A stretch of 41,798 nt of DNA from Caldilineales bacterium (GTDB lineage: Bacteria; Chloroflexota; Anaerolineae; J102). Every line of letters starts with the position of its first letter. Position 1 is the first letter of the stretch. The stretch covers positions 1 to 41,798 of the forward strand of contig JAIBAP010000054.1 of the NCBI GenBank assembly GCA_019695115.1, in the 5' to 3' direction. Of this stretch, positions 2,363 to 9,853 are shown piece after piece. The translations under genes were made by a program, and so were the position numbers. The notes below the pieces were generated by a model. It did no database searches, had not been told where the DNA came from, and saw only the letters and a program-made list of their open reading frames with translations.

Positions 2363-2395
2363 AAAAAAAGACCGGCCTCTCAACGAGGCCCGGCC
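2363..2395 (-). terminator. Rho-independent terminator
   Basis: Reading the minus strand, GGCCGGGCCTC-GTTG-AGAGGCCGGTC forms a strong GC-rich hairpin followed immediately by seven T. It ends the transcript that contains the putative 6S RNA upstream. There is no T tract on the plus-strand side, so it is directional. Confidence 0.85.
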
Positions 2396-2465
2396 TGAAT
2401 AAACTGGCCCGCCCGGCGTTCTGGCGCCGGCGTGGCCGCATAATGCCACGTAGCCTCTTCCATAC

Positions 2466-2614
2466 CGTGTGCTCAGATTGGTTTGAACCTGCTTGCGCAG
2501 GTGGGGGCCTTGGCCCGGTTTCCGCCTTGCCCGCCATGGGCTGTCGCGTCCGTCCGGGACATCTCCGGCCCCCGAGAGGTAGGTGTTGGCTCAGAACGTC
2601 TCAGGAGCATCACG
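2466..2614 (-). ncRNA. ssrS: Putative 6S RNA
   Basis: 6S RNA binds housekeeping RNA polymerase by mimicking an open promoter. Seen here: a roughly 150-nt element on the minus strand, followed by two small hairpins and a T-run terminator. Its ends pair (CGTG and GCTC near 2614 with GAGC and CACG near 2466). The 5' side contains CTGAGCC, and the 3' side a perfect hairpin ACCTGC-GCAA-GCAGGT running into AGGTTCAA. These resemble the CCTGAGCC and CACCT..AGGTTCAA elements flanking the central bubble of proteobacterial 6S RNAs. A GGGGGCC/GGCCCCC stem encloses the apical part. No ORF, tmRNA, RNase P or SRP core signature is seen. The identification rests on motif memory, not on a covariance-model search. 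Confidence 0.55.
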
Positions 2615-2703
2615 CGTATGAAAGTAAAGCTACAACCAGAGCATAGCACAACCCACCCCGCCGCGCAAATGCCACCCGGATCGGGGGATGAAGGTGCAGC
2701 AGT

Positions 2704-2766
2704 GGTCAGTCGTCAGTGGTCAGTCGTCAGTCGGCAGTGGTCAGTCGGCAGTAGTCAGTCGGCAGT
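2704..2766. repeat. Heptad array, GGTCAGT/CGGCAGT words
   Basis: Nine consecutive 7-nt words, variants of GGTCAGT, CGTCAGT and CGGCAGT, in strict phase. It lies between the putative 6S RNA and folD and has no coding sense. Confidence 0.85.
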
Positions 2767-2815
2767 CAACGCCAAACGCCACCCACCGCCTTGTCACCTT
2801 ACCCCTTGTCTACCT

Positions 2816-2900
2816 CCCCCTTGTCTACTTGTCTACCTATCTACTTGTCTACCTGTCTACCTGTCTACCTCCCCCTTGTCTACTTGTCTACCTGTCTACC
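2816..2900. repeat. TGTCTACC octad array
   Basis: Tandem 8-nt words TGTCTACC, TATCTACT and similar, interrupted by short C runs. The same words reappear at about 24624-24640, in front of tgt. Confidence 0.8.
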
Positions 2901-2939
2901 CTCCCCCCCAAAACAATTGTGCCAGAAATTACAAAGAAA

Positions 2940-2969
2940 TTGCACCATCCCGTCCCCCTGTGCTATAGT
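2940..2969 (+). promoter_or_regulatory. Candidate folD promoter
   Basis: TTGCAC (2940-2945), an 18-bp spacer and TATAGT (2964-2969) preceded by TG form a reasonable housekeeping promoter. Transcription would start near 2976, exactly where the C-rich array begins, so the array would become the folD 5' leader. This is a consensus match by eye only. Confidence 0.45.
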
Positions 2970-2980
2970 TGATCCGGTTG

Positions 2981-3236
2981 CCCCACCCCCCATCCCCCAT
3001 CCGCCCATCCCAGCAATCCGCCCCCACCCCCATCCGCCCATCCCAGCAATCCGCCCACCCTCATCCGCCCATCCCAGCAATCCGCCCACCCCAACAATCC
3101 GCCCACCCCAACAATCCGCCCATCCCCCATCCGCCCATCCCCCCATCCGCCCATCCCCCCATCCGCCCATCCCAGCAATCCGCCCATCCCAGTAATCCGC
3201 CCGCCCCAACAATCCGCCCATCCGCATCCACCCACC
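2981..3236. repeat. C-rich CCGCCCATCCC array in folD leader
   Basis: About 255 nt of repeated ATCCGCCCATCCC and AGCAATCCGCCC words, almost without G in runs on the plus strand. It ends about 15 nt before the folD ribosome-binding site. Same family as 1-120 and 34138-34320. Confidence 0.85.
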
Positions 3237-3260
3237 CAACCTCATCCCACGGAGGACCAT

Positions 3261-4142
3261 GTGACAGCCCAAATCATCGATGGCCAGGCCATCGCCGCCC
3301 AGATTCGGGGCGAAATCAAAGCCGAAGTCGAACAAATGAAGGCCGCCATCGGCAAAGTCCCCGGCCTCGCCGCCGTCTTGGTCGGCGAGCGCAAAGACTC
3401 ACAAACCTATGTCCGCATGAAGAAAAAGGCCTGCGCCGAGGTCGGCATCGCCTCCTTCGGCTATGACCTGCCCGCCGACATCAGCCAGGCCGACCTGAAA
3501 CAGGTCGTCGCCGAACTAAACGCCAACCCCGACGTCCACGGCATCCTCGTCCAACTGCCCCTCCCCGGCCACCTGGACGAAGAAGACATCCTCGGCGCCG
3601 TCAGCATCGAAAAAGACGTCGACGGCTTCCACCCTCTCAACATCGGCCGCCTGTCGATGAAGCGCCGCGAGCCACTGTTCACCCCCTGCACCCCGCGCGG
3701 CTGCATCGAACTGATCACCCGCAGCGGCTTTGCCATCGAGGGCAAGCGCGCCGTCGTCCTCGGCCGCAGCAACATCGTCGGCCTGCCGGCGGCCATGCTC
3801 CTCCTCCACCGCAACGCCACCGTCACCATCTGCCACTCGCGCACGGCCGACCTGCCCGCCGTCGTCCGTGAGGCCGAGATCCTGATTGCCGCCGTGGGCC
3901 GGGCGCAGATGGTGCGCGGGGACTGGATCAAGCCCGGCGCCGTAATCATCGATGTTGGCGTCAACGCCGTCGATGACCCCAGCGACCCCCGCGGCTACAA
4001 ACTGGTGGGCGATGTCAACTTCGCGGAAGCCAAAGAAGTGGCCGGGGCCATCACCCCGGTGCCGGGCGGCGTCGGCCCCATGACCATTGCCATGCTCCTG
4101 CGCAACACCACCGACGGCGCCCGCCGCGCGTACGGTTTCTGA
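3261..4142 (+). CDS. folD: Bifunctional methylene-THF dehydrogenase/methenyl-THF cyclohydrolase
   Basis: FolD interconverts 5,10-methylene-, methenyl- and 10-formyl-tetrahydrofolate in the cytoplasm, feeding purine synthesis and formyl-Met. The 293-aa length is typical. The catalytic-domain motif TYVRMKKKA contains the expected active-site lysine near residue 55. VQLPLPGH, DVDGFHPLN and the nucleotide-binding GRSNIVGLP segment follow, and the C-terminal TPVPGGVGPMT is diagnostic. The GTG start at 3261 is chosen because GGAGG lies 5 nt upstream at 3251-3255; the overlapping ATG at 3259 runs into TGA at once. The gene stands alone on the plus strand behind a C-rich transcribed leader. Confidence 0.96.
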   Translation: MTAQIIDGQAIAAQIRGEIKAEVEQMKAAIGKVPGLAAVLVGERKDSQTYVRMKKKACAEVGIASFGYDLPADISQADLKQVVAELNANPDVHGILVQLPLPGHLDEEDILGAVSIEKDVDGFHPLNIGRLSMKRREPLFTPCTPRGCIELITRSGFAIEGKRAVVLGRSNIVGLPAAMLLLHRNATVTICHSRTADLPAVVREAEILIAAVGRAQMVRGDWIKPGAVIIDVGVNAVDDPSDPRGYKLVGDVNFAEAKEVAGAITPVPGGVGPMTIAMLLRNTTDGARRAYGF

Positions 4143-7876: not shown

Positions 7877-9637
<1,761 letters not shown>

Positions 9638-9641
9638 AGTT

Positions 9642-9690
9642 GAAACGATTCGTGAAATTCGTCTATTCGTGAAATTCGTGAGAGAAAAAC
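9642..9690. repeat. ATTCGTGAAATTCGT short repeat in aspS leader
   Basis: Two and a half copies of ATTCGTGAAATTCGT-type words lie directly in front of the aspS ATG (minus-strand sense ATTTCACGAAT). It belongs to the class of start-codon-abutting arrays and has no ribosome-binding site. Confidence 0.65.
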
Positions 9691-9853
9691 AGAACAAAAA
9701 AAGAGACCGCTGGCCGCGGCCCTTGTGCCCACGATTATAGCCGCCCCTTGTCCTGCGCGCAAACGATGGTATAATCTCCCAGGCACACGAACTCTTCCCC
9801 GCCGGCCTTGCAGTCACCGGCGCCCGCCCTGCATTCCCCCCGAAGGAAAGGCC

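Follow-up and report, generated by a model that had tools for sequence, protein, structure and literature searches.

The window, by which we mean the whole 41,798-nt stretch of DNA that was analysed, has a gap without genes that is bounded by a metallo-beta-lactamase-fold gene (MBL; start 2163, minus strand) and by folD (start 3261, plus strand). On the minus strand of this gap lies a gene for the well-known small 6S RNA, whose mimicry of an open promoter holds back RNA polymerase. Two mechanically called open reading frames overlap the RNA, and no Pfam match was found for either. The features are:

137-1147, minus: prfB, the next gene after MBL
1318-2163, minus: MBL, flanking the gap
2363-2395, minus: intrinsic terminator, a GC stem followed by seven T, about 55 nt past the 6S core
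2450-2630, minus: 6S RNA core, about 181 nt, from the RF00013 and R2 matches
2452-2474, minus: closing stem, 3' arm, containing the conserved GCACACGG (alignment, covariation and fold)
2484-2489, minus: central helix, 3' strand GGUUCA, its first three bases common to the hairpin
2487-2502, minus: central hairpin ACCUGC-GCAA-GCAGGU, the putative release hairpin, partly exclusive with the central helix
2585-2598, minus: predicted pRNA template, starting opposite C2585 and running towards 2598 (5'-GUUGGCUCAGAACG)
2588-2593, minus: central helix, 5' strand UGAGCC, pairing with 2489-2484
2605-2631, minus: closing stem, 5' arm (fold; 10 of 17 stem pairs with changes on both sides)
2640-2648, minus: extended -10 element TGC-TATGCT, ending 9 nt before the core; predicted start at about 2633-2631
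2663-2668, minus: -35 element TTGCGC, 17 nt before the -10, read from the sequence
3261-4142, plus: folD, flanking the gap on the other side
7877-9817: aspS, with other genes now between it and the 6S gene

The sequence-only reading had placed a probable 6S RNA with its own terminator at 2363-2614, in a gap that it rightly took to be free of genes. Its low end coincides with the end of the terminator and stands. Its high end does not: since the 6S core is 2630-2450, a boundary at 2614 leaves out about 16 nt of the closing stem's 5' arm and, further out still, the promoter (2668-2640). Beyond the promoter, tandem repeats with units of 7, 8, 15, 17, 31, 34, 81 and 98 bases occupy much of the interval up to folD (2700-3238).

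Covariance searches

When the local stretch was scanned permissively with the whole of Rfam, the 6S family RF00013 matched 2630-2453 of the minus strand along the full model (1-187), with 46.4 bits and an E-value of 2.5e-8. This is the only strong match in that stretch and, by genome search, the only RF00013 match in the whole 5.99-Mb genome. The score equals the Rfam cut-off exactly; in the genome search it was marked as exceeding that value, whereas Rfam scans at the gathering threshold, of the whole window and of the local stretch, listed nothing. The same permissive scan also returned sX11, MIR7991, rmf, SpF66 and SorX on this stretch, all rejected at chance-level E-values of 0.63 to 9.

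Because the RF00013 score was borderline, a separate model, R2, was built from 33 sequences of the same class, with all 14 rows of the window's own family removed (alignment A2). R2 matched 2630-2450 with 112.2 bits and an E-value, to be taken as rough, of 5.3e-34, the next best match in the window having 3.3 bits; its rows had themselves been found via RF00013, so that the test is independent of the window's family, not of Rfam. Another model, R1, gives 146 bits here. The window is itself part of R1, and this score is thus not independent, which is why R2 was used for the test. Together, the full-length RF00013 match and the R2 score bear out the identity that had been proposed from the motifs.

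Structure, promoter and terminator

A structured element on the minus strand had been anticipated, and the fold agrees. For the minus strand of 2700-2300 the folding energy is -131 kcal/mol, the mean of the shuffles being -111.8 (z -3.63), and none of 200 dinucleotide shuffles was as low. The individual elements that had been picked out by eye are likewise present on this strand, namely a closed stem, a CTGAGCC block (2594-2588), and an ACCTGC-GCAA-GCAGGT hairpin (2502-2487) continuing into AGGTTCAA at 2490-2483. The RNA has the rod architecture of 6S RNA, with a closing stem, a central bubble and an apical stem, and its 3' side carries the conserved central hairpin.

Comparison of relatives was based on an alignment, A1, of 47 of 51 loci, from which L047, L049, L050 and L051 were omitted as weak or partial. 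In the consensus rod of 33 pairs, 93.9% of the pair cells over the 47 sequences are standard, a figure biased towards the structure, which RNAalifold derived from A1 itself. More weight falls on the compensatory counts: two-sided changes occur at 19 pairs, in 150 cells, against 41.6 in shuffles and 16 to 44 in slid versions of the structure.

The centre of the rod has two conserved states that have three bases in common. The helix UGAGCC:GGUUCA is paired in 97.5% of the cells and the hairpin ACCUGC:GCAGGU in 94.0% (47 sequences each); the window's hairpin has an ensemble probability of 0.72-1.0 per pair. Both elements vary little, and their support is therefore conservation more than covariation. 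Constrained folding of the window's RNA, protein absent, gives -78.2 kcal/mol for the helix and -78.8 for the hairpin, that is, within 1 kcal/mol. Such nearly balanced calculated energies make a switch between the two plausible.

The gene also appears to have its own start and end. A scan for consensus sigma-70 promoters did not find the 6S promoter, which matches the consensus poorly (7 of 12 hexamer positions by our count), and the claim for it thus rests on the comparison of relatives. With a pattern framed after viewing the relatives' upstream sequences, TGnTAnnnT is found within 50 nt upstream in 43 of 51 loci, 3.6 being expected from mononucleotide shuffles; the extended -10 together with TTG at the right distance is again found in 43 of 51, with 0.3 expected. 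At the other end, the strong intrinsic terminator that had been described is there, its stem and seven T occupying 2395-2363 and the terminator scan giving 2390-2374. The 181-nt core fits the range of about 153-237 bp given for 6S genes in PMC7726162; the precursor is predicted at about 270 nt.

These features also bear on whether the locus is a 6S-like relic, homologous to 6S RNA, drifting and no longer active. The window does score lowest by RF00013 among the 14 loci of its family, and its closing stem departs from the CCC/GGG ends usual in A1; we attribute the low score to these changed ends. However, the changed stem still pairs: folding 2631-2450 gives it 23 pairs, with small bulges confined to the 5' side. 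The motifs of the centre are intact, R2 gives 112 bits, and a promoter and terminator are kept by what is the sole copy in the genome. We therefore consider a relic highly improbable. The locus is a genuine, ordinary and slightly divergent 6S RNA gene, of a family already reported from the phylum; it is homologous to 6S RNA in sequence and structure, its promoter pattern is conserved, and it is a single-copy gene with a terminator.

Distribution and gene order among relatives

At E up to 0.05, the search of relatives gave RF00013 matches for 50 of its 61 genomes, among them the window's own; in 46 of the 50 the match lies over the cut-off. Of 399 genomes drawn from the phylum, 118 match at E up to 0.001. 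R1 was applied to 24 genomes, mostly those that RF00013 had missed or matched weakly, and matched nine; two further members of the window's family (G015 and G018) were recovered, as were G056 and G292. In another family of the class, f4, none of the eight members tested matched R1, all of them listed at ≥94% completeness, and loss or strong divergence of 6S RNA is possible there. Two genomes carry two 6S-like copies: G051, in which the second is much weaker (L046 and L047, 51.8 and 33.5 bits), and G393. The sequence-only reading had called Chloroflexota 6S RNAs poorly known, which is right only in part. Our literature search for 6S RNA and Anaerolineae found no paper; 6S genes in Chloroflexi are already published, having been found by Wehner et al. 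in 2014 as stated in PMC7726162.

Of the 49 Anaerolineae loci with enough sequence, 22 have MBL downstream of the 6S gene and on its strand (here and for aspS, flanks of mostly 1.5 kb are covered). This link would suit a reading of the RNA as a structured leader or a cis-acting regulator of the MBL gene, not as a free RNA. Against it, a strong terminator stands between the two, and MBL has a promoter-like CCTTGAT...TAnnnT of its own, downstream of 6S, in 8 of 23 MBL loci, all in the window's family. In addition, 6S RNA occurs without a nearby MBL in other loci and in Bacillota, where MBL is downstream at 0 of 23 loci among the matches listed. We find the leader reading very hard to credit.

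In the window, the promoter-like site reads CCTTGAT...TACGAT, and a palindrome, GTGT-N7-ACAC, lies just upstream of it (palindrome 2266-2280, site 2231-2259, both minus). Palindrome and site occur together in the same eight loci, and the palindrome looks like an operator.

Upstream, the gene of note is aspS, here a homologue of the window's copy with at least 40% identity, on the same strand and upstream within 500 bp. It precedes 6S in 11 of the 50 Anaerolineae loci whose upstream sequence reaches 300 bp; all 11 are among the 36 that do not belong to the window's family, and none is among its 14 members; in two loci of that family (L025 and L032), aspS ends about 1.2 kb upstream of 6S with folD between. 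The other Chloroflexota classes have it at 2 of 20 hand-picked 6S loci. The Bacillota counts are based on an exact-motif scan, of which 80 of 119 matching loci were taken and divided by record title into Bacillota and others. Among the matches listed, aspS is upstream at 19 of 22 usable Bacillota loci and rarA downstream at 17 of 24 Bacillota loci; aspS is also upstream in 10 of the 49 remaining usable records listed, many of which are genomes of the Anaerolineae set. In the literature on 6S RNA and aspS, which was surveyed in part, we know of no published account of the aspS-6S order in Chloroflexota. The B. subtilis 6S gene bsrA is flanked by aspS and yrvM (PMC11077062).

A tentative reading, to which we would give somewhat less than even weight, is that the 6S genes of Chloroflexota and Bacillota still occupy the same ancestral site immediately after aspS, where they would have been passed down from a time before the phyla split, with MBL as a second conserved link and co-inherited partner in Anaerolineae. 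If this is true, gene order could provide an anchor when divergent 6S RNAs are sought in deep lineages.

The folD link is narrower, being present in 6 of 51 loci; all six belong to the window's family and have folD on the opposite strand. E. coli ssrS also has a folate gene as its neighbour, which this link resembles. Given its restriction to six loci of one family, on the opposite strand, we read no function into it.

Proposed mechanism and comparison with known 6S RNAs

Occupation of the primary-sigma holoenzyme by 6S RNA and its release driven by pRNA synthesis are family knowledge (PMC12005410), and by analogy the same mechanism likely applies to the window's RNA. From the TGAGCCAACAC block, which is nearly invariant in A1, the start of the pRNA is predicted to lie opposite C2585. 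Judged by its letters, the predicted pRNA, GUUGGCUC... from C2585, has GG at 4/5, and A2584 is just upstream of the start; PMC8414754 describes as conserved in pRNAs a GG at 4/5 or 5/6 together with an A adjoining the start. The pRNA of B. subtilis 6S-1 is GUUCGGUCAAAACUA (PMC12005410).

The sequence of events would be as follows. The precursor, about 270 nt long, would be transcribed by a sigma-A-type RNA polymerase between about 2632 and about 2364 and then trimmed to the rod of about 181 nt. With its open centre the rod would mimic an open promoter and occupy the primary-sigma RNA polymerase as growth slows. On outgrowth, the polymerase would copy C2585 and the RNA bases 5' of it into a short pRNA (5'-GUUGGCUCAGAACG...), and this synthesis would open the UGAGCC:GGUUCA helix. 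The freed GGU could then complete the ACCUGC-GCAA-GCAGGU hairpin, and the polymerase would be released.

That the RNA is instead of the Ms1 type, which binds core polymerase and is structurally related to 6S RNA (PMC9130861), has a negligible chance, given that RF00013 is the only significant match in the whole-Rfam scan of the region and that the pRNA-template and release-hairpin features are conserved. Taken together, we are nearly certain that the locus is the single ssrS gene of a member of the Anaerolineae (Chloroflexota), with occupation of polymerase and release by pRNA as its likely mode of action.

The understanding of 6S RNA itself is unchanged by this gene. What it adds is a 6S gene, together with its promoter, terminator and predicted pRNA, in a genome where the Rfam gathering threshold misses or barely lists it, and the class-level alignment, together with the common aspS-6S order, may aid 6S annotation in poorly studied Chloroflexota.

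Several likenesses and differences emerge on comparison with characterised 6S RNAs. E. coli 6S RNA carries the strands CTGAGCC ... GGTTCAA, as the window does. Its pRNA differs in its start letters from the one predicted here, and its gene has different neighbours as well (ssrS-ygfA). Release by a central hairpin, as proposed for the window's RNA, would be a feature in common with E. coli 6S RNA, which forms a hairpin upon release (PMC12005410). The nearest characterised type is B. subtilis 6S-1, encoded by bsrA. As in RF00013 and 6S-1, there is a full-length structural match, a rod with an open centre, a central hairpin on the 3' side and a predicted pRNA template giving GG at 4/5; aspS is upstream in many relatives, as it is in B. 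subtilis. Unlike RF00013 at large, the window scores at the Rfam cut-off; unlike RF00013 and the B. subtilis type, its family has an AU-richer closing stem, and the usual downstream neighbour is MBL, as opposed to the rarA of the B. subtilis type.
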